DNA from: Gilvimarinus sp. DA14
GTDB lineage: Bacteria > Pseudomonadota > Gammaproteobacteria > Pseudomonadales > Cellvibrionaceae
Length of the DNA: 64,000 bases
Reading direction: 5' to 3'
NCBI RefSeq assembly: GCF_024204685.1
Contig: NZ_CP100350.1
Coordinates: 1,838,501 to 1,902,500, forward strand
The notes beneath the pieces are model-generated. The model was not told the origin of the DNA, did not search any database, and saw only the letters and a list, made by a program, of their open reading frames with translations. Of the stretch, positions 35,583 through 53,711 are shown in pieces (position 1 is the stretch's first letter; every line of letters begins with the position of its first letter). The position numbers were made by a program, and so were the translations under genes.

Positions 35583-38069
35583 CTACTGCTCTTCGCTTAG
35601 CGAAAGAATATACGCGGCGATCTTATCCCGGGTTTCCTGGTCCAGAAAGTTATGGGCGGGCATTACATGCTCGCCCCAGCGGCCGCTGCTTCCCTCGGCA
35701 ATAGTCTTGGCGATATAAGCTTTAGGGTCTTCCAGATCACTGTATTTTTGGGTGATCTGCAAAAAGCTTGGCCCCACCGAGGCTTCGCGTTCTTTGTGAC
35801 AGGCGATACAGCTGGTGCTTTTGGTTGCCTCTTTGCCCTCGGCAATAATCAGCTGCGCCTGGTGATTCAGGTCATCGGCATTAGCAACAGCCGCGGCCGC
35901 GGCTGCCTCTTCTTCGGGGGTGGGCAAGGCTGCGTTTTCATCGTATTCGATATAACTCAGTTTGGTGTCGGCGCTGCTGCCCCACCACTGGGTGCCATAT
36001 TCCAACACCCACAGGCGTCCGTCCGGGGTAATTTTCATATCCAGCGGCCCGGCCCACTCAATACCGGGAGCCAGGTCTTCAATTTTGGTGACGTTATCGA
36101 ACGCATCCAAGCTCACCACCTTGACCCAGCTGCGCATAAAGTCGCCAATAATTAATTTACCCTGGTAGTAATCGTCGTACGCCAGATCATCGCCACTTGG
36201 GTACACACCGGCCACCAGGGCATTGCGCCCGCCCTGACCCAGCTCGGGAAAACGCTCGGAACGGGCATAGGGGTACCAAATCAACGCAGGCTGCGCCGGT
36301 GGCAACACTTTTAAACCTGTGTTGCGAGGCGAGAAGTTCTCCACCGCCAGCGGGTTAAACAACTTGCCACTTTCGCCCGCTTGGTAATCGTACATTCGAT
36401 AGGGAATATTATTGGCCAAAACGGCGGGCCAGCCAAAGTAGCCGGGCTCAGTCACCTTGTTAATTTCGTCGTAACCGCGTGGGCCAAACTCCTGGGTATC
36501 GGCTTTACCATCCGGACCTACATCGCCGTAGTAAAGCGTGTCGGTATTGTCATCGATGGCGATGGTATAGGGGTTGCGCGTGCCCATCACGTAAATTTCT
36601 GGGCGGCCGCTTTCATTTGCGGCGAATAGATTGCCTTCGGGGATGGTGTAGCCGCCTTTTTTATCGGGAGTAATGCGCAGAATTTTACCGCGTAAATCCT
36701 GACTGTTAGACGATGTGCGCAGCGCGTCGTGGTAGGTGCCCTCGGGGGTATTGTTCATGGGGCCGGAGTCATTGGACTCGAACGGATTGGAGTTGTCCCC
36801 CAAGGCGACAAACAAATTACCATAGCGATCAAACTCCAGGTTGCCGCCGGTATGACAACAGGTGTTATCGTTGGGAATATCCAGCAGCACTTGCTCGCTG
36901 CTCATATCCAGTTTTTTATCGACTACCGTAAACTGCGATAAACGCTGCAACAATTCTGCTTCGCCGGATTCATCGGCCAGGTTATACATGGCATAAATTA
37001 TCTGGTTATTCGCAAAGTTCGGATCAAAAGCGACAGCCACCAACCCAAATTCAATATTTTTCTTGGGCGCAAACACCTCAAACTCGGCCATGGTGTGCAA
37101 ATCTTGCGTGGACATATCCAACCACAAAAGCTTGCCCTGGCGCTGGCCAATCATTGCCGCAGAATAATCGGCGCTAATGTCAAAGCTGATTGGCTCCACC
37201 AGATTTTTCACTAACACCTTCTGCTTAAAGCGACGCGAATCCGGTTTGGACTTTTCGTAATCCAGCGGCGCGCGATCGGCTAGCGCGTAATCCAGACCAC
37301 CACTTAAGTGTTCGCGAAACAAGGGGTTGGCAAAAGTCTCGGCCGTGTGACCCAGCCCGGTATAAAAAGCCCGGCCACCATCGAACTCGTGGTACCAGGC
37401 AATGGGGTGGTAATCGCCGTGTTTGCCACCTTGGTAGCTGCGTTCATCCACCACCAGCAAGTCGTTGCGCTGCTCCGACAGCGCATAAAAATCGTACCAC
37501 TCATCGGCCAAATAAAATTCGCCAGGCAAATTCTTGGTAGCCGGATGGTGTTTATCCACCACTTTTAAGCGCGCACGCTGAACATTGGAAGGGTCACCCG
37601 GATGAGATTTAAACGCGGCGCCAACCAATCGCTGGTACCAGTGCCAGTTACCCTGGCGGTGCTCGGTATCAGTGGCCGAATGTATGCCGACAAAACCACC
37701 GCCCGCCTGAATATAGCGCTCCATGGCCACCTGTTGCGACGCGCTAAGAATATCGCCCGTGGTATTCACAAATACAATGGCGGCCATTTTTGCCAACTCT
37801 TGATCGGTAAACACACCCGCGTCGTCGGTGGCGACCGGCGCCAATCCTTTCTCTTGCAATAATTCAGTGACCGCTTTTACGCCGGCGGGAATAGAATCGT
37901 GGCGCCAGCCCTCGGTCTTGGAAAACACCAACACCTGACTCAAGCGTTGCGCTTGGTCTGCCGCAGCAGCTTCAGGCTCTGACTTTTCGGTGGCACCGCA
38001 TGAGATAACGGAAAGGCTAAACAGGGTAATGGCAACTAGCGCCAATAGTTGACGAGGATAGATAATCAT
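35583..38069 (-). CDS. Large lipoprotein fusing ThuA, sugar-dehydrogenase-like propeller and cytochrome c domains
   Basis: About 828 residues. The export signal ends in a lipobox (SVISC), followed by a Glu/Ala-rich linker. Residues about 45-290 form a ThuA-like domain (VLVFSKTEGWRHDSIPAG, GGGFVGIHSATDT). Residues about 300-700 resemble the six-bladed propeller of soluble PQQ-type sugar dehydrogenases (NLEFDRYGNLFVALGDNSNP, LRGKILRI, PEIYVMGTRNPYTIA, GYFGWPAV). The last 90 residues form a class I cytochrome c with the heme site CIACH and a distal Met in HVMPAH. It probably oxidises a sugar or polyol at the outer membrane and passes electrons to its own heme. I use the ATG at 38069; a GTG four codons upstream exists. 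Confidence 0.85.
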   Translation of the reverse strand: MIIYPRQLLALVAITLFSLSVISCGATEKSEPEAAAADQAQRLSQVLVFSKTEGWRHDSIPAGVKAVTELLQEKGLAPVATDDAGVFTDQELAKMAAIVFVNTTGDILSASQQVAMERYIQAGGGFVGIHSATDTEHRQGNWHWYQRLVGAAFKSHPGDPSNVQRARLKVVDKHHPATKNLPGEFYLADEWYDFYALSEQRNDLLVVDERSYQGGKHGDYHPIAWYHEFDGGRAFYTGLGHTAETFANPLFREHLSGGLDYALADRAPLDYEKSKPDSRRFKQKVLVKNLVEPISFDISADYSAAMIGQRQGKLLWLDMSTQDLHTMAEFEVFAPKKNIEFGLVAVAFDPNFANNQIIYAMYNLADESGEAELLQRLSQFTVVDKKLDMSSEQVLLDIPNDNTCCHTGGNLEFDRYGNLFVALGDNSNPFESNDSGPMNNTPEGTYHDALRTSSNSQDLRGKILRITPDKKGGYTIPEGNLFAANESGRPEIYVMGTRNPYTIAIDDNTDTLYYGDVGPDGKADTQEFGPRGYDEINKVTEPGYFGWPAVLANNIPYRMYDYQAGESGKLFNPLAVENFSPRNTGLKVLPPAQPALIWYPYARSERFPELGQGGRNALVAGVYPSGDDLAYDDYYQGKLIIGDFMRSWVKVVSLDAFDNVTKIEDLAPGIEWAGPLDMKITPDGRLWVLEYGTQWWGSSADTKLSYIEYDENAALPTPEEEAAAAAAVANADDLNHQAQLIIAEGKEATKSTSCIACHKEREASVGPSFLQITQKYSDLEDPKAYIAKTIAEGSSGRWGEHVMPAHNFLDQETRDKIAAYILSLSEEQ

Positions 38070-38368
38070 TATTCCAAGCACACTTTAGGATAGTTATTAT
38101 TTCGTCGGCCAAGCAAAACCGCCGCGTGACGAACAGCTCGATAAGCCAGTTTGATAATCGAGTTAAAGAGCTGACCCTAAAAGTCTACTTCACCATAAGA
38201 GACTCGTCATTGCACTTTTCAAATATTTAGTCGCCGCTTTACAGAAAATGACAGAAAAACGCCCAGCCGATTACCAGGCCGATAACGCTGTTTCTCGTTA
38301 GCATGTTCGTCAGTTGCGGCCGTTTGTCTACCTTAGAAGACACTCAGCCAAAACTCACTGCCAGGGCG

Positions 38369-40625: not shown

Positions 40626-41264
40626 CTAATGAGTAGCCGCAGGCTCTACTACGACCAAAGACGGAGCACGAATCTGAAGCTGCCCCCACATAGTCATTAA
40701 AAATGCCACCTCTAGATCGACATTTTGGACTTCCCCGGCTTCAGGCAGAGTAAATGTAACTGCAATGCGTTGCCATGGTGTTTCACCAACGGCAGTGGGG
40801 ATAGGTGTCTTCTCGGACAGCACGCTGCTACGGCCCAACATCGGCGGCGTACCTTTTCTCAGGCCCTTTACCAAGATCTTAAGGGCCGGTTCTGCGATCA
40901 TGGAGCTGTCGTTATTACTAAACATAGTTTTAATGTCGGCGGAAAACTCCAAAGTCCTCCCCATCAAAGGGGCAACGTCCTCCTTGCTAAGTATCTGACG
41001 CAATTTACCCCAGGGTTCTGTTCCGGTACGAGTAATCGTCAATATGCTGCCCGACACGCTCAATTCATAGGAATTATTACCTGCATGCTGTAACAACGCC
41101 CAATGATTTAACTTACCAGCAGTAACATCCGTGAAATTAGCATTTTTTATCACACCTGGGGCCGGTGCGACATAGGTAGCGGAGGCATCTTTACTATGGT
41201 CACAGGCAGGCAAAACAATTGCACATATTAAAGCCAGCGCGAACGGCGGTAGTGATGGTTTCAC
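40626..41264 (-). CDS. Predicted lipoprotein with a jelly-roll-like domain, function unknown
   Basis: 212 residues. Signal LALICAIVLPAC gives a lipobox, with CDHSK after cleavage; Asp at +2 would be an inner-membrane retention signal by the E. coli rule. The rest is beta-rich: NANFTDVTAGKLNHWALL, a pattern that recalls carbohydrate-binding or galactose-binding-like modules (NxxF...W), then FSADIKTM and WQRIAVTFTLPEAG, also common in such modules. No catalytic motif. It lies downstream of the YHYH lipoprotein in the same direction, 68 bases away. Confidence 0.6.
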   Translation of the reverse strand: MKPSLPPFALALICAIVLPACDHSKDASATYVAPAPGVIKNANFTDVTAGKLNHWALLQHAGNNSYELSVSGSILTITRTGTEPWGKLRQILSKEDVAPLMGRTLEFSADIKTMFSNNDSSMIAEPALKILVKGLRKGTPPMLGRSSVLSEKTPIPTAVGETPWQRIAVTFTLPEAGEVQNVDLEVAFLMTMWGQLQIRAPSLVVVEPAATH

Positions 41265-41332: not shown

Positions 41333-42796
41333 TTAATGCGTGTGAATATGTTCCTCTCCACCTATAATATCGTGCCCATGCAGTAAATTTTCCAATGCCT
41401 GCCCCTCGGGCATAAATGAGTCATCCACCGCTGCGCGAAAACAACCCAGTATCCAAGGGTAGGCATCGGTCACGTAATAGCCGTACTGCCCCTCATAGGT
41501 CATGCCATTGCACTCATCCAAATCCCCGGCGCCCTCAATGTACTCGTAATCACCGATAAACTGTCCGTCGTAATTGCCACTGGCCACCGCACCTGTGCCC
41601 GCTTCAGGGGTCTCGTAGCCGGCCACCGCAAGGCGCTCTCCACCATCGTTTTTTAACCGGTAACTGGAGGTAACTGCTCGAATACTACCCGTGTCCTCAA
41701 TGCAGGGGCCGAACACGGGAAAGCCATCGGCGGCAAAACCAATAAGCGGTGAAGGCCCGCTAGCCGAGCTGCACTCGAGCTCAAACAGCGCGCGCGGATT
41801 GCCGTGATAATGGTAACTACCATCCGGTTGCGGATGGGCATTGTGAGCATCGGTACCAAAATAATTTAAAGGCGACATAGGATCGTAACGCCAGGGATTG
41901 CTTTCCTGATCCGGGCCGCAGCCGATCTTTTCTTCGCCTAATGGCTCGTCGCCCACGCCATAACAGGCGGCGGCCAAAAGATCAGCTGTTACACCGTTGA
42001 GAAAAATAACGTTCTTTACACCTACCTGCAAAGGGGTAACTTCGTCGGCGAACTGGGGGTTAACCGGCAGGGTGTACTGCGCAACCACCTCGCTGACATC
42101 CGAGGCAAACTTGGCGGACGCATCGTTAAAGTCGTGATTGGGAATCTGATTCAGACTGAAAGTACAGGTGTCATCCTCAACAGAGACCTGCAATGAACCG
42201 CTAAAGGGCAGAGACCTTTGTATATCCGTCACTTGTGAATAATAGGTACCCTGGTACGAGGTACAGTTTCCGCCACGACGCGCGAGCGTGGCTTCAGTAA
42301 TATCGATGTTATCCGCGAATGCTGTCACACTCGCTGCTGTCGCCTGGGCACTCAACTCGCCTACACCGATCGTCAGAGCAACCTGATATACACCGGGCAC
42401 ATCCGGTGTAAAACTCGGTTGTGCAGTATTAGCGTACTGCAATTGCGCACTACTGTCTGGCGGCGTCTGCACCAGCGACCATTCAAAATTGATAATCACA
42501 TCAGCAAGTGCATCAGACACCACGCTTTGCAGTACCACTTGCTCTCCCACGGCCACCTCGGCAACCGACTGAATGGCCGGTGCAGGCAACTCTTGCGATG
42601 TTTCAGAGCTTGCCGCGGAAGCCGAACTGCTCGAAACGGTATCTGCGCTTTCGCTGGAGCTGGAGACACTACTCTGCGCTTTGATAATTTGCGTCACAGC
42701 CTCGCTGGCAGAACCGCTGGAACCTCCGCAGGCGCCCAGCAGGAGGAAAGAGGCAGAGGCCAGAGCTGTTAATAAACGAGGGTTATTCATATTCAC
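41333..42796 (-). CDS. YHYH-domain lipoprotein with Ser-rich linker
   Basis: 487 residues. Lipobox LLLGAC, then CGGSSGSAS and a Ser-rich linker of about 40 residues, a style typical of Cellvibrio-like secreted proteins. A PKD/Ig-like domain follows (about 75-165), then the YHYH domain with its signature in DGSYHYHGNP (about 326) and GFAADGFPVFGPC. The role of YHYH proteins is unknown; the family is secreted and its conserved His suggest metal binding. Possibly in one unit with the next lipoprotein. Confidence 0.8.
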   Translation of the reverse strand: MNMNNPRLLTALASASFLLLGACGGSSGSASEAVTQIIKAQSSVSSSSESADTVSSSSASAASSETSQELPAPAIQSVAEVAVGEQVVLQSVVSDALADVIINFEWSLVQTPPDSSAQLQYANTAQPSFTPDVPGVYQVALTIGVGELSAQATAASVTAFADNIDITEATLARRGGNCTSYQGTYYSQVTDIQRSLPFSGSLQVSVEDDTCTFSLNQIPNHDFNDASAKFASDVSEVVAQYTLPVNPQFADEVTPLQVGVKNVIFLNGVTADLLAAACYGVGDEPLGEEKIGCGPDQESNPWRYDPMSPLNYFGTDAHNAHPQPDGSYHYHGNPRALFELECSSASGPSPLIGFAADGFPVFGPCIEDTGSIRAVTSSYRLKNDGGERLAVAGYETPEAGTGAVASGNYDGQFIGDYEYIEGAGDLDECNGMTYEGQYGYYVTDAYPWILGCFRAAVDDSFMPEGQALENLLHGHDIIGGEEHIHTH

Positions 42797-42914
42797 GGTC
42801 CTTTAGGCAGTAAAGCCAGGCCTTGGCAATTTTAACGCCACCGTGAAAATCATTTTGTAAAACAATAGGTTGCAGAAAAAAGTCAAAACCTAAACGGGAC
42901 ATCGCTTATAGAAC

Positions 42915-44447
42915 TCACGCGAGCGTGTAGTAACTCCAGCGCCTTTCGCCGCAGCGCTGCAAACGTCCGTCGCGATGCAGCTTTTTCAGTAGATATGAAG
43001 CGCGGTGATGATCCACCCCGAGCAACGCCTGCACCTCGGCATTGTCAATGCGACCGCGCTCCTCCAGCTGCGCCACAATCCGGTCTTCATCGCAGCCCTG
43101 GGCGGCGCGGACTTGTATCGTCTGCTTGTCGGTCGGCTCAGACGCGACTTGCGCTACAGGCTCGAGAAAATGCAAATGCCGTACACCGATATTCTGCCCG
43201 CGACTGGCGATCAGGGCGTATTCGATCAGATTTTTTAATTCGCGCACATTACCGGGATAATGATAAGCGCGCAGCTGCACCAATGCTTCCGCATCGATTT
43301 CCACATTCTCGCGGCCCATCTGTGCGCACAACTGTTCGGCAAAATATTGCACCAGCAGCGGAATATCCACGGCCCGCTCGCGTAAGGGCGGCAGAGTAAT
43401 TTGGTAGCCGGCAAGGCGAAAATATAAATCTTTGCGAAACTCGCCACTACTGACCCTATCGCTCAGCTCGGCGTTGGTGGCCGCCACTATGCGCACGTTC
43501 ACCCGCCGGGAGTTTTTCCCCCCCACCGGCGTGACCAACCCATCTTCCAGCACACGCAGCAACTTTGCCTGCAGGGGTAAAGGCATATCACCTATTTCAT
43601 CGAGAAACAGGGTGCCGCCATCGGCGCGTACAAAAAAACCAGCCCGATCCGCCACCGCACCTGTGTAAGCGCCTTTGGTGTGGCCAAAAAACTCAGCGTC
43701 GGCCAGCTCGGCCGGTATCGCCGAACAGTTAACCGCAATAAATGGCTTGGCGCGGCGCTCGCTGCCATAGTGGATCGCGCGCGACACCAGCTCCTTCCCG
43801 GTGCCGCTTTCCCCCAACACCAACACATTGGTGTTCTGGGCACTTTGCAGCGCGCGCACTTGCTCAAGCAAATCGAGAATGGCGCTGCTTTGACCAATAA
43901 ACGCCTCGATACCCCACTGCGCCGCTTCGCGCTCACTCACCGCCGATAATTGCTCACCAGCTAGATGCAACGCACTTTCCGCCTCAAGACGACGGTCTAT
44001 TTGCTCTTGCAGCTGACGATTAAGACTCAAGAGTTCACGGTTTTGCTCGCGCAACTGCAGCTGCTGCTGGCGAATCGTTAAATGCGTGGTGATTCTTGCC
44101 AGTACCTCTTCTCGCTGCAGAGGCTTGGTAATGTAATCGACGGCCCCCACCGTAAAGCCTTTGACCTTACTGTCGGTATCACCCAGTGCGCTCATAAAAA
44201 TAATCGGAAAGTCGTGACCTTGGGGCAGCTTTTTCAAACGTCGACAGACCTCAAAGCCGTCCATTCCGGGCATCATCACATCCAGCAACACCAGTTCGGG
44301 TTGGCGCAAGCTGGCAACCTCAAGAGCCTGCTCGCCATCGGTTGCCACCGCAAGCTCAAGGCCACTGCTGGAAAGGTAATCCACCAATATATCCAGGTTC
44401 GCGGGTTTGTCGTCGACCACCAGCACTAAAGGTTCGTTATTTTTCAT
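42915..44447 (-). CDS. Sigma-54 activator with receiver domain and an unusual C-terminal winged helix
   Basis: 510 residues. Receiver domain (1-125) with phospho-Asp in LLLDVMMPGMDG and Lys in YITKPLQ; a coiled coil (about 125-185); AAA+ domain with Walker A GESGTGKE, contact loop GAYTGA (Tyr in place of the usual Phe, near 257) and LFLDEIGDM. The C terminus (about 435-510) is not a Fis-type helix-turn-helix: DEDRIVAQLEERGRIDNAEV, then LGVDHHRASYLLKKLHRDGRL looks like a winged helix. It is divergent from a receiver-GGDEF gene whose sigma-54 promoter and repeated sites lie between them. It is probably the activator of that operon. Confidence 0.88.
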   Translation of the reverse strand: MKNNEPLVLVVDDKPANLDILVDYLSSSGLELAVATDGEQALEVASLRQPELVLLDVMMPGMDGFEVCRRLKKLPQGHDFPIIFMSALGDTDSKVKGFTVGAVDYITKPLQREEVLARITTHLTIRQQQLQLREQNRELLSLNRQLQEQIDRRLEAESALHLAGEQLSAVSEREAAQWGIEAFIGQSSAILDLLEQVRALQSAQNTNVLVLGESGTGKELVSRAIHYGSERRAKPFIAVNCSAIPAELADAEFFGHTKGAYTGAVADRAGFFVRADGGTLFLDEIGDMPLPLQAKLLRVLEDGLVTPVGGKNSRRVNVRIVAATNAELSDRVSSGEFRKDLYFRLAGYQITLPPLRERAVDIPLLVQYFAEQLCAQMGRENVEIDAEALVQLRAYHYPGNVRELKNLIEYALIASRGQNIGVRHLHFLEPVAQVASEPTDKQTIQVRAAQGCDEDRIVAQLEERGRIDNAEVQALLGVDHHRASYLLKKLHRDGRLQRCGERRWSYYTLA

Positions 44448-44481
44448 AAGCCACGCACGTTCTGTCTTTGCGAAATCTCCC

Positions 44482-44557
44482 TATAAGCGATTATAAGCGA
44501 ATACTGACACCTTTAAGCGATAACCTTCTTATAAGAGCCCAAGAAAACCATAAGCCA
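44482..44557. promoter_or_regulatory. Ladder of TAAGCGA-like repeats, candidate activator binding sites
   Basis: Copies begin at 44484, 44494 and 44514 (all TAAGCGA), then TAAGAGC at 44532 and TAAGCCA at 44551. Spacings of 10, 20, 18 and 19 bases keep them close to one face of the helix. They lie about 25-100 bases upstream of the -24 element, the usual distance for sigma-54 activator sites, and overlap the likely promoter of the activator gene itself. Confidence 0.6.
44490..44517 (-). promoter_or_regulatory. Candidate promoter of the sigma-54 activator gene
   Basis: On the minus strand TATAAT (44490-44495) is 43 bases from the start codon; a weak -35 (CTTAAA, 44512-44517) sits at 16 bases. 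Both boxes fall inside the TAAGCGA repeats, so the product could repress its own gene. Confidence 0.4.
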
Positions 44558-44580
44558 CTGTTTACAAAGAATATTTATTT

Positions 44581-44596
44581 TGGCCAGGCTTTTGCT
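44581..44596 (+). promoter_or_regulatory. Sigma-54 (-24/-12) promoter of the receiver-GGDEF / TonB receptor / kinase operon
   Basis: TGGCCAGGCTTTTGCT matches TGGCacg-N4-TTGCW; GG (44582-44583) and GC (44594-44595) are separated by exactly 10 bases. Transcription would start near 44607, giving a leader of about 27 nt before the ATG at 44634. Confidence 0.75.
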
Positions 44597-44633
44597 ATAG
44601 CAGTTATTAACACGTTTATCTCTGGATTACGAC

Positions 44634-45560
44634 ATGATGATGACTGCAACTGACCTGAACCAAGAGCCGCAACCGCTGGTATTGCTGGTAGACGATACAC
44701 CCGCCAACCTGGATGTACTGGTTGAACACTTGAGCAAAGAAAATATCGACCTGATGGTGGCCACCTCCGGCCAGGAAGGGCTGGAGTTAGCGCACCAGCA
44801 CCTGCCGGATTTGATTCTGCTGGATGTGATGATGCCTGGCATGGACGGCTATACCATGTGCGAGAAATTGATGGCTGAACCTGACCTGGCCGATATTCCA
44901 GTGGTGTTTCTCACCTCGCGAGACAATGAGCTCGACGTTGAGCACGGTTTGTCCCTGGGCGCCGTAGACTATATTGTCAAACCCTTCTCGCTGCCGATTC
45001 TTAAGGCCCGTGTGCGTAATCATTTGGCGCTAAAGCGCCGCGGCGACCTGCTGACCCAGCTAGCCTGTACCGATGGCCTAACCCGTGTAGCCAACCGCCG
45101 CCACTTCGATCAAACCCTTACTCAGGAATGGGCGCGGGCGCAACGCAGCAACAGCGAACTGGCCCTGGTGATGATCGATATCGACGAGTTCAAACCTTAC
45201 AACGACCGCCTAGGACACACTGCTGGAGATGCCTGTTTACGTCAAATAGCTCAAGCTCTGAAAGCAGCGCTGCACCGCCCCGGGGATTTGTTGGCGCGCT
45301 ATGGCGGAGAAGAGTTTGTCGCCCTGCTGCCCGATACCGACCTGCCGAGTGCCGCACTGATTGCCGAGCAGATGCGCCTAGCCGTGCAGCAATTGCAGCT
45401 CCCACATCCCACCGCATTGGCCCCCGCACAGGTGAGCGTCAGCATGGGCGTCGCCAGCACTTACCCATGCGATCTGCAACAAGCCCAAGATCTTCTCGAG
45501 CTTGCCGACGAACACCTGTACCAAGCCAAGCGTATGGGACGTAACCGCGTTTATTGTTGA
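44634..45560 (+). CDS. Response regulator diguanylate cyclase (REC-GGDEF)
   Basis: 308 residues: receiver domain (about 10-130) with phospho-Asp in LLDVMMPGMDG and Lys in YIVKPFSLP, then a GGDEF domain with the active site RYGGEEF and an I-site RPGD five residues before it. It is a complete, soluble c-di-GMP synthase that should be switched on by phosphorylation. Its receiver is strikingly like that of the divergent activator (both share VDDxPANLD and LLDVMMPGMDG), which suggests a common kinase. Three Met codons in a row leave the exact start open (44634, 44637, 44640). First gene after the sigma-54 promoter; the TonB receptor gene follows after 55 bases. Confidence 0.93.
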   Translation: MMMTATDLNQEPQPLVLLVDDTPANLDVLVEHLSKENIDLMVATSGQEGLELAHQHLPDLILLDVMMPGMDGYTMCEKLMAEPDLADIPVVFLTSRDNELDVEHGLSLGAVDYIVKPFSLPILKARVRNHLALKRRGDLLTQLACTDGLTRVANRRHFDQTLTQEWARAQRSNSELALVMIDIDEFKPYNDRLGHTAGDACLRQIAQALKAALHRPGDLLARYGGEEFVALLPDTDLPSAALIAEQMRLAVQQLQLPHPTALAPAQVSVSMGVASTYPCDLQQAQDLLELADEHLYQAKRMGRNRVYC

Positions 45561-45615
45561 TACACCGCGATAAGGGTACTCTTGCCATCCCAAGTTACGG
45601 ACACTCAAACAACCT

Positions 45616-47697
45616 ATGAATAAGAATCGCCGACAACCATTTGCCGCCCTGATCCTGTGCGCTCTTGCCAACACCGCAAACAGCCAAGCCGACGACCTCA
45701 CGGCTCTTTTGGCAATCCTGGAAGAAGAGACCGCTCTAGCCACCCAAAGTAAAATGAACGCCGACTATGTTCCGGGAATGGTGACTATACTGCACCGCGA
45801 AAACCTGCAAACTCTCGGCTACAGCGATGTCGCTGCGGCGTTAAACCAAGTGGCGGGTTTTCATACTACCGTCAACAACGCTGGCGATGTCCGCACCCTG
45901 GTGCGTGGCGTGGGTGCCACACTCAACTCCAGCAACCTGAAATTAATGGTCAACGGCGTCGCAGTAAACCGGGCTACCGATGGCTCCGCAGACTGGGTGT
46001 TACGCCTGCCACTGGCGCAAATTGATCGCATCGAAGTCATTCGCGGCCCGGGCTCGGCACTTTACGGGGAGTTTGCCTTCTCCGGGACAGTCAACATCAT
46101 CACCCGCAGCGACAACTCAGTCGGTGCCGAAATTGGCAGCAACGACAGCACCCAAATGAATGCCAGCTTTGCCCATCAGTGGGACAACAGCGTATCGCTG
46201 AACGGCACCGTCGCTTATTGGGACAGCGGCAACAGTGGTCTTTACACCAACCCCGACAATTTTGCCGGCTTTGATGCAGGGTTCTCTCCAGGTAAGGTCT
46301 ACGATCACGAACAAGGCGCTACCGTCCTGGCGCAACTGGGCCTGCTGGGCTGGCAGGGCAACATTTATCTGGCCGATGTGGAGCGCGGTCCGGGCTACGG
46401 CGAGAGCGCCGCCATGCCGAGGGAGTTCGAACCACGCAAAGAACAAATCTGGCAGCTCGATCTCATTAAGTCCTGGACGCTCAGTGAGACACTCACCTTT
46501 GCCACCCAGCTGACCCACCTGCAGACCGATTTGGACCATGCTACTTATCTTCCCATCCCCGAGGGAGTCCGTGGCCCCGGAGGGCGCCCAATTCGAGAGT
46601 CTCGCTTTACACAGGAAGGCAATAGTGATCGGGAAACCAATCTCACGTTCAGCGCCCATTGGCATTTGGGAGAAGGCCATCGTATTTACCTGGACACAGG
46701 TTACACCCACAGCGAAGTGACCGATTCATTTCGCCATCAATTTGTTATCGGTGGCCCCATCATCGAAGTGCCCCAAGACGAACTCGCGCTCAGCCCCGGC
46801 ACCCGGCGTGAATATATTCACTTTACGGCGCAAGACCAGTGGCAAATAAATCAGGCAATAGAATTAACCCTTGGCGTGAGATATGACGACTACAGCGACT
46901 GGGGCAGTAACCTTGCGCCGCGCATCGCCGCGGTGTGGCGCGCCTCCGATAACCATATTGTGAAAATGCAATACGCCGAAGCCTTTCGCCCCCCCTCTTT
47001 GGCGGAAAGCGGCGACGTGCGACCCGGCCGCCCAACTGGCAGACCGGACGGTCCGCCAGGAAGGCCAACTCAGGAGCCACCACCCCCGGCACTAACCGAA
47101 GAGCGGCTCAACTCGAGTGAAATCGCCTATATATACAAACGCCCCAGTTTTAAATTCAGCGGCACTGTATTTCACACCACAGTGGAAGATTTAATCGAGT
47201 TCCACCTACAGCCCGGGCAAAGACCCTATTGGCGCAACCGAGGGGATATCGACAGTTACGGCCTTGAGCTCGAGTGGCAACAAAAACTCGGTCGCAGCTG
47301 GGAGTGGAATGCCAATGTCTCTTACGTGGACGCCGAAGATCATTTCGACGTAGATAAAACGCTGCTCGGCTCTATTGCATGGCTCGCCAATGCCGACTTG
47401 GTATGGCACGCATCGCAACACTTCGATCACGCCCTCAAAATTCGCTATGTCGGCAGCCAGGAAGGCTGGGAGCTGGATTTACGCACCCCGGTCACCGAGC
47501 GTTTCCAGGACTACACCAGCTTGGACTATACATTGAGCGTCAATAAGCTATTGCAGGTAAACGGGTTAACCCTACGAGCTTCTGTTCTGAATATATTTTC
47601 CGATCGTCATAACAGTGTGCCCACCCCCGCGCAGTACCCACAGGGCTTGCCCCAGGGTGAACGCACGGTGAACGCGCAGCTGGAGTACCGTTTCTAA
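45616..47697 (+). CDS. TonB-dependent outer membrane receptor
   Basis: 693 residues with a signal peptide (ends near ANSQA). After DDLTALLAILEEETALATQSKMN comes the plug domain (VPGMVTILHRENL, then IEVIRGPGSALYGEFAFSGTVNIIT) and a 22-strand barrel ending in AQLEYRF, with the expected terminal Phe. A Pro/Gly/Arg-rich insertion at about 469-492 (PGRPTGRPDGPPGRP) is probably an external loop. The plug style, without a colicin-receptor-like TonB box, is typical of receptors encoded next to YfiR-like and kinase genes. Substrate unknown. It may import or only sense its ligand. Confidence 0.92.
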   Translation: MNKNRRQPFAALILCALANTANSQADDLTALLAILEEETALATQSKMNADYVPGMVTILHRENLQTLGYSDVAAALNQVAGFHTTVNNAGDVRTLVRGVGATLNSSNLKLMVNGVAVNRATDGSADWVLRLPLAQIDRIEVIRGPGSALYGEFAFSGTVNIITRSDNSVGAEIGSNDSTQMNASFAHQWDNSVSLNGTVAYWDSGNSGLYTNPDNFAGFDAGFSPGKVYDHEQGATVLAQLGLLGWQGNIYLADVERGPGYGESAAMPREFEPRKEQIWQLDLIKSWTLSETLTFATQLTHLQTDLDHATYLPIPEGVRGPGGRPIRESRFTQEGNSDRETNLTFSAHWHLGEGHRIYLDTGYTHSEVTDSFRHQFVIGGPIIEVPQDELALSPGTRREYIHFTAQDQWQINQAIELTLGVRYDDYSDWGSNLAPRIAAVWRASDNHIVKMQYAEAFRPPSLAESGDVRPGRPTGRPDGPPGRPTQEPPPPALTEERLNSSEIAYIYKRPSFKFSGTVFHTTVEDLIEFHLQPGQRPYWRNRGDIDSYGLELEWQQKLGRSWEWNANVSYVDAEDHFDVDKTLLGSIAWLANADLVWHASQHFDHALKIRYVGSQEGWELDLRTPVTERFQDYTSLDYTLSVNKLLQVNGLTLRASVLNIFSDRHNSVPTPAQYPQGLPQGERTVNAQLEYRF

Positions 47698-47722
47698 CGG
47701 CCTAGCAGATGATGACCGAGCC

Positions 47723-48307
47723 ATGAGCGCGCAAGGACGCCAGACATTGAGGCTATCGCTTTGGTTTAAAGCCATGGCTCTGTGTACCCTGCTGTCTCTA
47801 CCGTGCCAAAGCCTGGTGGCCGACAGTTTCAGCGACAGACGCGCGCTGGTGGGTATTAAACTGTTTCGCACGTTAATCAGCGCAGACCTGCAGCTCGCGG
47901 AAAAACAAAGCGCAAACGGCTCCCTATCCATCTACTTTGTCTACGCTACAGACATGGAGCTTGCACGCGAGCATCTGCAACAATGGCAGAAAAACACCGC
48001 TGCGATTCAGCAAATTGAGACCACCGCCACCGTCATCTCACTGCAGGAATACTATCGCACCCAGCCCCTGCCAACCGCCGTATTTATTTCGCAAAAACTT
48101 AACAGCGCCGAGCTGGATGAGTTTATAGAGTACAGCCACAACAAAAAAATTATTACTTTTTCACCCTATGCGGGTGACGTCCAGGCCGGTGTGCTGGCGG
48201 GAATTTCAGTGGCAGCCACCATTAAGCCACTAATCAATACGGCCACACTGCGAACCTCCGAGCTGTCGATCAAAGACTTTTATCTCAAGGTGGCAAAACA
48301 ATTATGA
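47723..48307 (+). CDS. YfiR-like (DUF4154) periplasmic protein
   Basis: 194 residues with an N-terminal export segment (LWFKAMALCTLLSLPCQSLVA). The C-terminal part resembles the YfiR/DUF4154 pattern: a Gly-rich turn (DVQAGVLAGISV), then KPLINTATLRTSELSIKDFYLKVAK, where YfiR proteins have IN...L...G(L/I)...S..LL.LA. YfiR proteins are periplasmic regulators that hold a membrane signalling enzyme inactive. Here it lies between the receptor gene (25 bases upstream) and the kinase gene (4-base overlap), so it may link the two across the periplasm. The family call is moderate. Confidence 0.6.
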   Translation: MSAQGRQTLRLSLWFKAMALCTLLSLPCQSLVADSFSDRRALVGIKLFRTLISADLQLAEKQSANGSLSIYFVYATDMELAREHLQQWQKNTAAIQQIETTATVISLQEYYRTQPLPTAVFISQKLNSAELDEFIEYSHNKKIITFSPYAGDVQAGVLAGISVAATIKPLINTATLRTSELSIKDFYLKVAKQL

Positions 48308-49899
48308 ATATACTCAAGCTGCCTGCCAAGCTGAACACTTTGTACACCAATATCAGCTGGCGAAGTTTCTTGGCGATTAATTGCATCTTTGTGGTGCTGA
48401 CGCTGGCCTTTGTAATCTCGCTGGGCCGCTACTGGTACAACACCCTGCAGCCCAGGCTATACAGCATGGCCGAAACCCAAGCGAGCATTCTGGCACAATC
48501 ACAGGCGACCTTACTTCAGGAGATAGTGCAGCACACCGAAGCCAACTCACTGCCACTGGAACTCTACAACGCCGTGCAAACCATACTGCTGGTAGAAGAC
48601 CCCGCCATTAATGAAAGCTTTGTTCGCGGCCTTAGCCTTGAGTTTGATTACGACAGCATGGCGGTCAAACAGGACTCGCTGAATTTTGTCGAAGGCAAGA
48701 CAAATTGTGAAAGCTGCTTTGCGGCAAATTTTCCACTGCTCGATCAAAACGGGGCACTGGTAGGCATTGCGCATTTCAATCTAAGCGACAGCTACTTTCG
48801 CGCTCTAAGTCGCGATATGCAATCTAAGTTGATCACCGAATCAAGTATCGCGCTGCTGCTGTTATTTACAGTGTGGATAGTAATGCTGGTTATGTTCCAC
48901 CGGCTTAATACCGCCAAGCGTATTATCGAAGATTCTGACCGGGCCAAAACCCGCTTTATGGCTAATGTCACCCACGAGCTACGAACACCGCTAAACGCAA
49001 TTTTGGGTTACACCCAACTTTACAAAAGTGACCCCGACCTCGCCGCTCAGTACCGTGCCGGCATCGAAACCATCGACCGCAGTGCAGAGCATTTGCTACT
49101 GATGATTAATGACATTCTGGATTTCTCCCGCGCCGACGAAGAAAACCTGACACTTAACCCAACGGATGTATCGCTTGCGCTGTTTTTGCAGACCCTCGCC
49201 GAAATGGGACAGATCAGTGCACAACTACAGCAGATAGAATTTTGCACTGACTTCCCCGCCACCCTGCCCAGCGAAGTCAACATTGATGAAAAGCGCCTGC
49301 GCCAGGTGCTACTTAACTTGATCAACAACGCGATAAAGTTCACACCTGAAGGCGAGGTGTGTTTCCAGGTTCAAACTCTGAGTCAGTCGCAACGTCATAT
49401 CCAGCTGCGTTTTTCAGTCAAGGATACGGGGCTGGGCATCGCCGCAGAGGATTTACAGAGAATTTTTATTCCCTTTGTACAAATAGAAAACGCCATTACC
49501 CGCGCAGAGGGATCGGGCTTAGGGCTGGCCATTAGCCAGCGAATTCTGCACTTAATGAACAGCCGGCTGCGGGTTAAAAGTCAGCCAGGCTCGGGCAGTG
49601 TATTTTATTTTGATCTGAACCTGCGCCTGGCTGCCAATGGCAAACAGGTGGATATAGTCACACCCATTCCACCGGAACCGCAAACACTCATATTGCCTAG
49701 CCCCACCACCCTCGAAGCGCTGATTGCGCATGCGCAAAAGCACAATATTCTTGGCTTGCGAAATTGCCTTCGCGATCTGCAAGACGACCCGCAGTATGCG
49801 GATTTTTTGCATACGGTTTCTCCCTACGTGCAAAGCTATCGCTTTAAACCGTTAAAAGAAAAACTGGTCGCTTACTTAAAATCGGCCTCAGCAGAATAA
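48304..49899 (+). CDS. Membrane sensor histidine kinase with periplasmic CxxC
   Basis: 531 residues. A transmembrane helix at about 20-42, a periplasmic sensor region (43-180), a second helix (about 183-205), the phosphoacceptor box VTHELRTPLNAILGY (His near 224), and an ATPase domain (LINNAIKFT, DTGLGIAAED, GSGLGLAIS). The periplasmic part has KTNCESCFAANF with Cys at about 136 and 139, a pair that could bind metal or form a redox switch; it is not a heme motif because no His follows. No receiver of its own, so its partners are probably the two receiver proteins at the head of the locus. Translationally coupled to the YfiR-like gene. Confidence 0.9.
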   Translation: MNILKLPAKLNTLYTNISWRSFLAINCIFVVLTLAFVISLGRYWYNTLQPRLYSMAETQASILAQSQATLLQEIVQHTEANSLPLELYNAVQTILLVEDPAINESFVRGLSLEFDYDSMAVKQDSLNFVEGKTNCESCFAANFPLLDQNGALVGIAHFNLSDSYFRALSRDMQSKLITESSIALLLLFTVWIVMLVMFHRLNTAKRIIEDSDRAKTRFMANVTHELRTPLNAILGYTQLYKSDPDLAAQYRAGIETIDRSAEHLLLMINDILDFSRADEENLTLNPTDVSLALFLQTLAEMGQISAQLQQIEFCTDFPATLPSEVNIDEKRLRQVLLNLINNAIKFTPEGEVCFQVQTLSQSQRHIQLRFSVKDTGLGIAAEDLQRIFIPFVQIENAITRAEGSGLGLAISQRILHLMNSRLRVKSQPGSGSVFYFDLNLRLAANGKQVDIVTPIPPEPQTLILPSPTTLEALIAHAQKHNILGLRNCLRDLQDDPQYADFLHTVSPYVQSYRFKPLKEKLVAYLKSASAE

Positions 49900-50139: not shown

Positions 50140-51102
50140 ATGGCTTACCTGCACCGGAAGGATGTGCCACTGCGGATTCCTGTCGTCGCGCATCACACTA
50201 TTGGTGCGCTGGAAGGCAAGGTAGACACCTATATCCAAAACCCCTACATCTCACGTCGCCATTTGTGCTTAGAGTGGAGCGGAGAGCTGTGGCAAATAAA
50301 GGACCTGAGCCGCAACGGCACCTGGGTCAATGGCCGCAAGCTGGAGAAGGGAGTTTACTACCCACTGCAAAAAGGTGATCAGATCCAGCTGGCAGGCGAA
50401 GAAGGCGCGTGCTTTGAAGTAGAAGATCTGGCGCCGCCCCGAGATATCTTATTACCCATTGTCTCGCAGAATGGCACACCCGCGATTATTGAACTGCAAG
50501 CGGCCAACCTGATACCCGATGAAGAGCAACCCGAGTGGTACATCTACCAAGAGCCCAACAGCGGCCAGTGGCTGGTGCAGTCGGTAGCAGACAGTAACCA
50601 GCCCGCAAAGCCTCTGCGCCATAACGATATTCTGGAAGGAAGCGCCGGGCGCTGGCAGCTGTTTTGCGCCAGCGCCAGCGCCCCCACGATGGAACGCCCG
50701 AGTCAGGCTTGCATAACCGAGGCGGAGATCCGCTTTGAGGTCAGTCTGGACGAAGAGAGCACCGGGTTGTTAATCCACAGCGAAGGCCAGCGCTATAACC
50801 TGGGTATTCGCGCCCACAATTACCTGCTGCTGCTATTGGCGAGGCACCGCGCCGATGACGCCCGTCAGGGGTTGAGTGAACTCGACCAGGGCTGGGTGAG
50901 CAACGATTTACTGGTCCACGAACTGGGGCTGGAGCCCAATCACCTAAATATCCAAGTTTACCGAGCCCGACAACAGCTCACTAAGACCATTCCGCAGCTC
51001 AACCACGACAAGTTTGTCGAACGCCGAGGCACCACCATGCGCCTGGGGTGCAACAGGTTTTCTATCCACAAAGGTGGTAAAGTAGAACAACAATTGCCCT
51101 AA
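50140..51102 (+). CDS. FHA domain fused to an OmpR-like winged helix
   Basis: 320 residues, no signal peptide. An FHA domain at about 18-100 has the phosphothreonine-binding features NPYISRRHLCLEW and LSRNGTWVNGRKL. The middle part is of unknown fold. The C-terminal 120 residues follow the pattern of OmpR/PhoB winged helices: an initial strand region, YNLGIRAHNYLLLLLARH, NHLNIQVYRARQQLTKTI and FVERRGTTMRLG. It may be a DNA-binding protein controlled by threonine phosphorylation from the kinase encoded 32 bases downstream. GGGA lies 8 bases before the ATG. The 240 bases upstream (49900-50139) hold no recognisable gene. Confidence 0.8.
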   Translation: MAYLHRKDVPLRIPVVAHHTIGALEGKVDTYIQNPYISRRHLCLEWSGELWQIKDLSRNGTWVNGRKLEKGVYYPLQKGDQIQLAGEEGACFEVEDLAPPRDILLPIVSQNGTPAIIELQAANLIPDEEQPEWYIYQEPNSGQWLVQSVADSNQPAKPLRHNDILEGSAGRWQLFCASASAPTMERPSQACITEAEIRFEVSLDEESTGLLIHSEGQRYNLGIRAHNYLLLLLARHRADDARQGLSELDQGWVSNDLLVHELGLEPNHLNIQVYRARQQLTKTIPQLNHDKFVERRGTTMRLGCNRFSIHKGGKVEQQLP

Positions 51103-51134
51103 GGCTTAAGTCCGTTGTTCACTAGCACTTCTGC

Positions 51135-53711
51135 ATGATCGATCAGAACCTACACACCGACTCATTGGTCGCCGGCCGTTATCGCGTTATCAAACGTATT
51201 GGTCAGGGCGGTATGGGCCAAGTGTTTCTGGCGCAAGATGAACAGCTCGACCGCCCGGTTGCCATCAAGCAACTGCGCCACGACGGCGACAACGCCAAAG
51301 CGCTTCACAGGTTTGAGCGCGAGGCTAAGTTCCTCGCCAAACTTAACCACCCCTGTATCGTGCAAGTTTACGATTACATCGCCGAAGTGAGCGGCGGCTC
51401 GCTGGTAATGGAGTATATCGACGGCGTGGATCTGGCGCGCAAGCTGCGCGAAGAGGCTACCTCCCTGGCGCAAAGACTGCAGTGGCTGTATCAGATTATG
51501 GCCGGGCTCGCCTGTGCCCACGCGGCGGGAATTTTGCACCGGGATTTAAAACCCGAGAACATTCTGGTGGGGCGCAATGGCAACGCCAAACTCACCGACT
51601 TTGGCATTGCCCGCGAACAGCAACAAAATACCGAGCTGACTCAGGCGGTGATTGGCAGCTACGCCTATATGTCACCGGAGCAAATTGCCGACGAGCCGCT
51701 GGATTTTAAAAGCGATCTCTTCTCTTTCGGCATCGTCGCCTACAGTGTGCTGCTGGAGCAGCACCCCTTTGGCGCCACCGGCAACACGTTAAAACTGCTG
51801 CAAAGTATCTCCGCAGCGCCCCTAAACAAACAGGCTCTGGATGACAGCAAGCTGCCCGAAGAACTCTGCGATTTGCTGCAGAGCTTGCTGGCCAAAGATA
51901 AATCCCAACGGCCCGACAGCAGCCAACAGGTCTGTGAAAAACTGGCGCTAATCAGCCAGCAGCATCCGTTGTCGGAAACTCTGGAAGGCGGCGCTCAAAC
52001 CGCCGAACTGCCCCCTCTTACCCTGTTTACCCGGCACACGGGGCAGGCAGTGCCACGGCGACATAAGCATAGGCGCCACTGGCTAACGGTTGGCGCTACC
52101 TTACTGATCGCTGCGGTCGCCGGCATTTGGTTTAGCGGCCAGGGTTCCTCACCGGGGCTCATCCCCCAGGCTGTAGCCGTGCTGCCGCCACGCTTTAACC
52201 CCGACGGCGAATTGGCCGAGGCCGATCAACGCCTAATTGGGGGCACTTTGTATCAGGCCGCCCAACAGAGCGTGGTGCAACTGCCGGGAGCCGAAGCCAT
52301 CCCGCGTTTTGAGGTGGACTCCCAGAGCGGAGAACCCTTTCAAATACTCACCGCCCTGGCCGCCAAAGAGCTGATCATTACCGAGGCCTTTTGTAACCTC
52401 ACCTGGTGCGACATCAGCATCAACCGCCTGGCACCGGCCAGCGACAGCCAACGCTTGCAAGTGCTGGCAAGCGCCAACTTTCGCACCACAGTAGATCGCT
52501 ACGCCATGCTCGCCGAGCGGGTGAACCTGCACATCAACAAGCTCTATAACCACGAAGGCGAAATCCAGCTCGACTTACCAGATGAAGCGGAGTACCGGGT
52601 CTTTGCCGAGCAGTATCAACATTATTACAGCGCCGGCGCTAACCCCGCCCAGCTGGATGCCTTAGAGGCGCTAAGCAGCCAAACCAGAAACTGGGCCGAT
52701 GTACAAATTTTGTTTCGCGAGATTGCTTTGGACCTCTACCACGACACGGGTGACGACCAAGCATTGGTGCGCCTGGAGGAGTTCCTGCCAGCCAAGAACC
52801 GCAGCGACACAGAGACACAACTACTGAATCAATTTGCCCTGGCGCGCAGTCAGAACGATTTTGCCCAGGCCCGTCACTGGCTGGAGCGGCTTGAGCAACA
52901 AGGGCTGGAGCAGACGGCACTGACGGAACTGGAGGGCTTGCTGGCACTGTCGGAAGGCAATTACCCGGTGGCGGTGGAGAACTTTAGTTACAGCGTGCAA
53001 CTGCGCCCCAGTGTGCACAATTACTTCCGTCTTTCTATGGCCTCCTGGCTCAACGGCGACATTGAAAGCGCCCGCGAGCACATTGCTAACGCCTACCAGC
53101 TCAACCCCCAAGACCATAAAACCAACCGCTTTCGCGGTTTAATCGCACTCTGGGAAGGCCGCCTGGATGAAGCCAACCAGGCTCTGCGCCAGGCCCTAGA
53201 GAGCGAGCGCAGTGCCATAGTGCTCAACAATCTCGCCGTGGTGTTGCTGCTGCAAGGCGACTACGCCAGCTCACAGAAGCGTTTAAACGAGGCTTTGCAA
53301 ATTGCACCGGGCGACGAGCAGACGCTGTTTAACCTGGCCGATGCGCATAAACTAAGTGGCGACGATGCCACCGCAAACCAACTTTACCAACGTGTTGCCG
53401 AGCAGACCGCGAGCGCCTCTGATGCCTATTCGCTGCGCCTGAACGCCCAGGCGCAAGCACATACCGGCAACCATGTAAGCGCCATTGCTGTGTATCAAAA
53501 AGCGCGCGAGCTCGACCCCGACAGTGGCGACACCCACTACACCGGAGCCTTGGTTTATGCGTTGGCAGGAGAACAGATTTCCGCGCGCCTAGCGGCCCGG
53601 GCGGCCTTAGAGAGCGGGATGGGGCAGGCCTGGTTTGCCCTACCCTGGTTTGACGGGTTATGTGACCAAGCGCAGGGGGCGGATTGTTTAGCGATAGCGC
53701 AAGCTCTCTAA
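51135..53711 (+). CDS. Ser/Thr protein kinase with transmembrane helix and TPR region
   Basis: 858 residues. The kinase domain (about 14-275) is complete: GQGGMGQVFLA, VAIK with the ATP Lys, HRDLKPENILV with the catalytic Asp, DFGIA, and YMSPEQ. A single membrane helix follows (about 315-337). The rest, probably periplasmic, has a strand-rich stretch (about 345-490) and then TPR repeats (about 590-858; LDEANQALRQALES, GDYASSQKRLNEALQIAPGD). The architecture is like CadC- or PknB-like receptors with TPR sensors. It pairs with the FHA-winged helix gene. A perfect 17-bp inverted repeat spans its stop codon. Confidence 0.92.
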   Translation: MIDQNLHTDSLVAGRYRVIKRIGQGGMGQVFLAQDEQLDRPVAIKQLRHDGDNAKALHRFEREAKFLAKLNHPCIVQVYDYIAEVSGGSLVMEYIDGVDLARKLREEATSLAQRLQWLYQIMAGLACAHAAGILHRDLKPENILVGRNGNAKLTDFGIAREQQQNTELTQAVIGSYAYMSPEQIADEPLDFKSDLFSFGIVAYSVLLEQHPFGATGNTLKLLQSISAAPLNKQALDDSKLPEELCDLLQSLLAKDKSQRPDSSQQVCEKLALISQQHPLSETLEGGAQTAELPPLTLFTRHTGQAVPRRHKHRRHWLTVGATLLIAAVAGIWFSGQGSSPGLIPQAVAVLPPRFNPDGELAEADQRLIGGTLYQAAQQSVVQLPGAEAIPRFEVDSQSGEPFQILTALAAKELIITEAFCNLTWCDISINRLAPASDSQRLQVLASANFRTTVDRYAMLAERVNLHINKLYNHEGEIQLDLPDEAEYRVFAEQYQHYYSAGANPAQLDALEALSSQTRNWADVQILFREIALDLYHDTGDDQALVRLEEFLPAKNRSDTETQLLNQFALARSQNDFAQARHWLERLEQQGLEQTALTELEGLLALSEGNYPVAVENFSYSVQLRPSVHNYFRLSMASWLNGDIESAREHIANAYQLNPQDHKTNRFRGLIALWEGRLDEANQALRQALESERSAIVLNNLAVVLLLQGDYASSQKRLNEALQIAPGDEQTLFNLADAHKLSGDDATANQLYQRVAEQTASASDAYSLRLNAQAQAHTGNHVSAIAVYQKARELDPDSGDTHYTGALVYALAGEQISARLAARAALESGMGQAWFALPWFDGLCDQAQGADCLAIAQAL

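Follow-up and report, generated by a model that had tools for sequence, protein, structure and literature searches.

How might an event at a TonB-dependent receptor reach transcription when the genes beside the receptor encode a histidine kinase and a sigma-54 activator? The question is raised by a locus of the marine bacterium Gilvimarinus sp. DA14, in which genes for a sigma-54 activator, a REC-GGDEF diguanylate cyclase, a TonB-dependent receptor, a YfiR-fold periplasmic protein and a membrane histidine kinase lie together in a stretch of 64,000 nucleotides (positions 1,838,501-1,902,500 of the 3.96-Mb genome), here called the window. The answer that we favour, and hold to be rather probable, is a self-amplifying trans-envelope module, in which a signal would run from the receptor through the YfiR-fold protein, as a relay, to the kinase and on to the sigma-54 activator, which would act on its own operon and on an exported protein. 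The gene content, gene order, folds, conservation, and promoter and box architecture of this module were established in this analysis.

The activator gene (42915-44447, reverse strand) encodes a protein of 510 aa with a receiver, a linker, an AAA+ domain and a predicted C-terminal winged helix. Divergent from it, on the forward strand, are the genes for the cyclase (44634-45560; 308 aa, PleD-like, GGEEF and RPGD I-site intact), the receptor (45616-47697; 693 aa, plug and barrel), the YfiR-fold protein (47723-48307; 194 aa) and the kinase (48304-49899; 531 aa, HisKA and HATPase_c). All five open reading frames (ORFs) are where an earlier note, made from the letters of the window, had placed them, and the short gaps or overlaps that it described measure 55 bp, 25 bp and, for the last pair, a 4-bp overlap. 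Strong Pfam domain calls were obtained for four of the five proteins, the YfiR-like protein being the exception. They include Response_reg and Sigma54_activat (PF00158; E 2.5e-64) for the activator and Response_reg and GGDEF (E 3.3e-52) for the cyclase, whose A-site is predicted to be active. The locus is larger than had been noted, as two further genes on the activator strand accompany the five in both congeners used for comparison. The first (41333-42796), a candidate target gene, encodes a lipoprotein-like protein of 487 aa with PKD and YHYH (PF14240) domains, and the gene behind it (40626-41264) a lipoprotein-like protein of 212 aa with no Pfam family. Function searches with these two proteins gave none, and an NCBIfam match to MalA was far under the cut-off. 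Between the window and the two congeners, the five module proteins are 49-69% identical, the PKD-YHYH protein 54-55% and the 212-aa protein 42-48%. Within the receptor, residues about 465-492 (window 47008-47091) form an Arg/Pro/Gly-rich segment, RPGRPTGRPDGPPGRPTQEPPPP, that is much shorter in the two congeners.

A scan of named genomes gave 39 loci, 12 of which carry the module; four more were found via the DNA-binding domain of the activator and, with the window, the number of homologous loci is 17 (the window, L018-L028, L046 and L072-L075). L018 and L019, the loci of Gilvimarinus algae and G. gilvus, come from the same genomes as G001 and G004 (L013 and L012) and were counted once. The carriers are Gilvimarinus, Shewanella salipaludis, two Bowmanella, Oceanobacter kriegii, Aliikangiella coralliicola, metagenome-assembled genomes (MAGs) assigned to Oceanospirillaceae, Pseudomonadales, an unplaced gammaproteobacterium and two Rhodocyclaceae, and four further genomes. 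The REC protein and the receptor are present in all 17 loci, and the activator, the YfiR-like protein and the kinase in 16 each; the L026 contig yielded no activator, and that of L022 stops just past the receptor gene. The order that had been described for the window is thus kept well beyond close relatives, as the earlier note had required of it, and its retention in the two congeners and in other families and orders indicates that the five-gene arrangement is not due to chance. In a receptor tree, from which L033, L037 and L052-L056 of the 39 loci were left out, the 17 module receptors group on a single branch, apart from 20 other receptors (support 100/99).

The module is rare. A close receptor was found in three of eight Gilvimarinus genomes, including the window's own. 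Of 293 genomes in the order, at least 11 have a match to the DNA-binding domain of the activator at E <= 0.001 and at least seven (self included) at E < 1e-19; in the class the figure is at least three of 369 (self included). Among the six strong non-self matches in the order, four have the whole module and two (L076 and L077) stand beside a hybrid kinase. The weak matches that were read, L078-L080 (G143 and G086 were left out), proved not to be such activators.

The earlier note had asserted sigma-54 control of the divergent operon without a promoter. A -24/-12 element in the divergent region of 186 bp, TGGCCAGGCTTTTGCT (44581-44596, forward strand), identified from sequence only, is a likely sigma-54 promoter of the cyclase-receptor-YfiR-kinase operon, and with the boxes that precede it supports the assertion. 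These putative operator boxes occupy 44481-44538 on the same strand (CTATAAGCGA at 44481, TTATAAGCGA at 44491, CTTTAAGCGA at 44511 and TTATAAGAGC at 44529) and are direct repeats, the first three being 10 and 20 bp apart. Missing from that picture were a second predicted sigma-54 promoter, TGGCGTTAAAATTGCC (42825-42840, reverse strand), in the spacer that separates the activator gene from the YHYH gene, and the YHYH gene downstream of it. A single putative operator box, CTATAAGCGA (42902-42911, reverse strand), lies upstream of this second promoter. Promoter and box are present at both intergenic regions in all three Gilvimarinus loci, despite the divergence of the remaining spacer. Boxes of the form CTATAAGCGA, which is also the consensus of the cyclase-side boxes, precede -24/-12 promoters typically by about 100, 90 and 70 bp.

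Across the 17 loci (376,808 bases), 21 sigma-54-like sites have a TATAAG box 60-130 bp upstream, compared with a mean of 0.5 and a largest value of 2 in 20 Markov shuffles; 14 sites have two or more boxes, as against none in the shuffles. With the box allowed to lie 30-160 bp upstream, 21 sites were listed, of which 15 fell in the two intergenic regions of the module, four downstream of the kinase in L074 and L075, one elsewhere in L026 and one within a gene (window 35822). Of 29 distances between adjacent boxes on the cyclase side, 11 are 10-11 bp and eight are 20-21 bp (19 in all). A strict joint test was passed by 11 of 16 cyclase-side (divergent) regions and by seven of 16 target-side regions. 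The 17 loci are related and hence are not independent trials; the weight of the box and promoter evidence comes from the divergence of the surrounding sequence and from the negative control loci. These controls are the stretches (386-1531 bp) upstream of 20 related, non-module receptors without a visible activator, and the signature was found upstream of the receptor in none of the 20. One match to rpoN was found in the window's genome, in which TATAAGCGANNNNAAGCGA occurs once, at the module locus (control 0). Taken singly, the patterns are not enriched in the window: TATAAGCGA with one mismatch was found 13 times (10.5 expected) and TGGCNNNNNNNTTGCW alone twice (2.4 expected). What carries the signal is how the elements are combined, where they stand and that they are conserved. 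In the 300 bp 3' of the activator of Bowmanella denitrificans (L021, below 7149) there are two boxes and what looks by eye like a promoter, but no YHYH or similar gene follows them; this is perhaps an orphaned promoter.

Several observations weigh against our reading. The strict joint test was failed by five of 16 cyclase-side regions (L022, L025, L027, L046 and L073) and by nine of 16 target-side regions, and L026 has boxes and a promoter with no activator found on its contig of 12.6 kb. In the 3.96-Mb genome, TATAAG-N50-80-sigma-54 was found at three places compared with four for the backward control; one of the three is the YHYH promoter, and the other two resemble coding sequence from the matched letters. 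The looser N80-110 pattern was found at eight places, two of them at the module locus, and the control also gave eight. As these composite counts are not above control, they are uninformative on further targets. Finally, the closest other receiver in the genome, at C1:2914986, matches the receiver of the activator (47%) as well as the receiver of the module cyclase matches it (45%). This equal similarity makes kinase cross-talk possible and counts against exclusivity.

The activator has D56 and K108 in the receiver and, as expected of a sigma-54 enhancer-binding protein, a GESGTGKE Walker A motif and a GAYTGA loop. The D56 phosphoacceptor, K108, GESGTGKE and GAxTG are each invariant in 18 of 18 homologues. 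The receiver, the sigma-54-interacting AAA+ domain and the GAYTGA loop are shared with NtrC-type REC-AAA+ regulators, which differ in having a Fis domain. No Fis family was found among the Pfam and profile matches of the activator, which instead gave weak MarR and winged-helix matches. A model of its last 84 residues has block means of 86-93 for the predicted local distance difference test (pLDDT) over residues 31-84, and Foldseek matches to this model, weak throughout (best E 1.7e-3), include many winged helices of MarR, ArsR-type and Zalpha proteins. The DNA-binding domain is thus predicted to be a winged helix rather than Fis, with direct repeats as the putative operator. A Fis-type C-terminal helix-turn-helix is usual, though not universal, in sigma-54 enhancer-binding proteins. 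For one activator family, the Desulfovibrio DVU0151 orthologues, a possible winged helix has been suggested (PMC4641369). Relatives of the winged-helix activator adjoin the hybrid kinase genes in L076 (7653-9236) and L077 (8074-9660), and no receptor or YfiR-like gene was found in these 19-kb stretches. It thus appears that activators of this family also work with other sensors.

The label YfiR-like, given in the earlier note, is below threshold by Pfam, as the DUF4154 score of 17.0 bits is under the cut-off of 24.9, and was upheld by a fold match to YfiR itself. An E-value of 0.01 for DUF4154 is reached by 11 of 19 YfiR-like homologues, and a search of the window's genome with the YfiR-like profile gave a single match. 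A sequence search for solved relatives found none, and only the fold comparison succeeded. The AlphaFold model (pLDDT 92) matches chains of Pseudomonas aeruginosa YfiR with target-normalized template modelling (TM) scores of 0.66-0.78 and E-values of 4.5e-6 to 1.4e-4. The best E-values, however, belong to single-domain substrate-binding proteins of Rhodothermus (6k1x, 8.3e-7), and the fold matches include ABC-type binding proteins (3lft). The YfiR-like protein may, on this modelling, have a ligand-binding role. These matches, together with a receptor that is an ordinary plug and barrel with no STN signalling domain in the Pfam scan, would suit a nutrient-uptake operon regulated by its own two-component system, in which the YfiR-fold protein presents an imported substrate to the kinase and docking carries no signal. 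We consider this unlikely, as the YfiR chains score higher than the substrate-binding proteins (TM 0.53-0.62) and what recurs in the ORF lists read is the five genes together with those for exported proteins, in flanks covered without a systematic permease search.

What the module controls is a separate question. The earlier note saw c-di-GMP as an output, and this may hold for the 14 of 17 loci in which the REC protein has GGEEF, 12 of the 14 also having an RxxD I-site. It is not a constant output, since at the other three loci (L023, L025 and L027) the REC protein is a bare receiver without GGDEF, of 146 aa in Oceanobacter, 160 aa in the Oceanospirillaceae MAG and 137 aa in Aliikangiella. 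In the receptor tree Oceanobacter and the MAG are sisters, with Aliikangiella on a separate branch, so that the GGDEF domain was lost, or acquired, on more than one occasion. The best reading of these sequences is that c-di-GMP is a common but dispensable output, and not the defining one.

Exported proteins recur instead. A YHYH gene is present in eight of 17 loci, after the activator in seven and after the kinase in L026. In that position, or under boxes, L027 has a run of three S74/YadA-head proteins and L072 a 2186-aa GLUG protein, and L074 and L075 have an 872-874-aa Lcl_C protein under additional sigma-54 sites that follow the kinase gene, so that exported proteins of these three kinds are found in four loci besides the eight with YHYH. 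We infer that an exported protein is the common thread and hence the main output. The alternative that the module is mainly a c-di-GMP switch, as the earlier note had it, with the sigma-54 activator merely tuning the dose of the operon, draws on the frequency of the GGEEF cyclase and its I-site and on its place as the first gene of the operon. It appears decidedly doubtful, given that the activator and boxes stay where the REC protein is a bare receiver, and that the exported-protein gene has the same promoter architecture in the seven target sides that passed the strict test.

The YHYH proteins are of two visibly different subtypes, and four loci with the Shewanella-like subtype carry a small His-rich GHAHLY partner. 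Members of this GHAH(L/I)Y family, which has no Pfam family, follow the YHYH genes at L020:4764-5321, L022:4490-5119, L026:8655-9164 and L073:12335-12820. A copper role for the YHYH targets was considered on the basis of these four partners and of a MopE-type PF11617 motif two genes past YHYH in L026, and is too weak to claim.

Both receivers have N(L/I/V)D at the same place in alpha-1 in 16 of 16 loci (module receivers only, with no outside control). The alpha-1 helix helps to set receiver partner choice, and the shared motif fits one kinase for both receivers. The kinase also has a periplasmic CxxC (C135 and C138; window 48706-48717), invariant in 16 of 16 homologues, which is a possible redox or metal site. 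That the kinase senses periplasmic redox or metal through this CxxC, the receptor being a regulated output rather than the input, agrees with the place of the receptor gene in the promoter-bearing operon and with the lack of any conserved cysteine across 19 YfiR-like proteins, in contrast to the two pairs of cysteines in P. aeruginosa YfiR (PMC4655355), but is improbable, as it leaves unexplained both the YfiR-like and receptor genes beside the kinase in 16 of 16 loci with a contig reaching them and the single branch of the module receptors.

Other genes near the module include an FHA-domain protein and then a Ser/Thr kinase with TPR repeats directly after it (window 50140-53711), which found no counterpart in the module flanks covered in the two congeners, and a fusion of ThuA, glucose/sorbosone dehydrogenase and cytochrome c (window 35583-38081).

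For the trans-envelope module that we favour, the ligand, the sense of YfiR action, the phosphotransfer, the DNA binding and the activation are the parts that we infer, as follows. A substrate would dock on, or be imported by, the TonB-dependent receptor, and this event would alter the state of the YfiR-fold protein (relieved or loaded). By analogy with the gating of YfiN by YfiB-YfiR in Pseudomonas, the YfiR-fold protein would gate the sensor domain of the kinase, with the receptor in the role of YfiB and the kinase in that of YfiN. The kinase would phosphorylate two receivers, one in the sigma-54 activator and the other in its partner REC-GGDEF protein. The winged helices of the activator would then bind the CTATAAGCGA repeats, many in helical phase and mostly 60-115 bp upstream of the two promoters, and turn on both the cyclase-receptor-YfiR-kinase operon and the adjacent exported protein, here the PKD-YHYH lipoprotein. 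Synthesis of c-di-GMP would be a frequent parallel output. The earlier account holds, at the level of sequence, for sigma-54 and for the conservation of gene order, and is incomplete for the output.

Known systems and a set of related loci provide comparisons. HmsCDE reportedly combines an outer-membrane element, a YfiR-fold periplasmic protein and an inner-membrane effector with c-di-GMP. The same elements make up YfiBNR of P. aeruginosa (PMC4655355). The module resembles both systems in these elements and differs in having a TonB-dependent receptor in place of the OmpA-like lipoprotein YfiB, a histidine kinase in place of the membrane cyclase YfiN, a cytosolic REC-GGDEF cyclase and an added sigma-54 activator. 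Our best reading is of a YfiBNR-like trans-envelope relay that has been redirected to a kinase and, through it, to a local sigma-54 activator serving exported proteins. Related receptors are found in 20 loci (of L029-L051) with no sigma-54 activator on the stretches covered, some of which reach the contig end; L042, L048, L050 and L051 gave only weak activator matches (21-76 bits, short ORFs). These receptors are 26-31% identical to the module receptor in the best segment (41% for L050). A YfiR-like gene is on 15 of the 20 stretches, commonly accompanied by a kinase or GGDEF gene.

TonB-dependent receptor signalling is known mainly from systems with an anti-sigma factor and an extracytoplasmic function (ECF) sigma factor, of which FecA-FecR-FecI is one. 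The module resembles it as a set of genes around a TonB-dependent receptor that may pass a signal from the outer membrane on to transcription. Receptors of the FecA type have an N-terminal STN domain, which the module receptor lacks in the Pfam scan, and work with an ECF sigma factor and an anti-sigma factor where the module has a kinase and a sigma-54 activator; neither factor was found among 13 window proteins in the Pfam scan. The earlier note knew of no described system with this combination and, in a search of the open-access literature, no description of a sigma-54 activator joined to a TonB receptor, YfiR and kinase set was found among the matches listed; one match, PMC9611778, is unrelated. 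Of the open-access papers listed for YHYH, none is by its title about the family (PF14240).

The chances seem to us evenly balanced that the module represents a third route from a TonB-dependent receptor to transcription, beside the one through ECF sigma factors, in which receptor, YfiR-fold relay and kinase fire a dedicated winged-helix activator that reads direct repeats in helical phase and so places one particular exported or surface protein, often a YHYH protein, when the ligand is present, and c-di-GMP is optional. If the reading is true, the module ties a TonB-dependent receptor to phosphotransfer and sigma-54 at two neighbouring promoters, with a YfiR-fold protein that goes with a kinase rather than with a membrane cyclase. 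Ligand, relay and output would then be testable in one place, and the module would offer a regulatory handle on the YHYH family.

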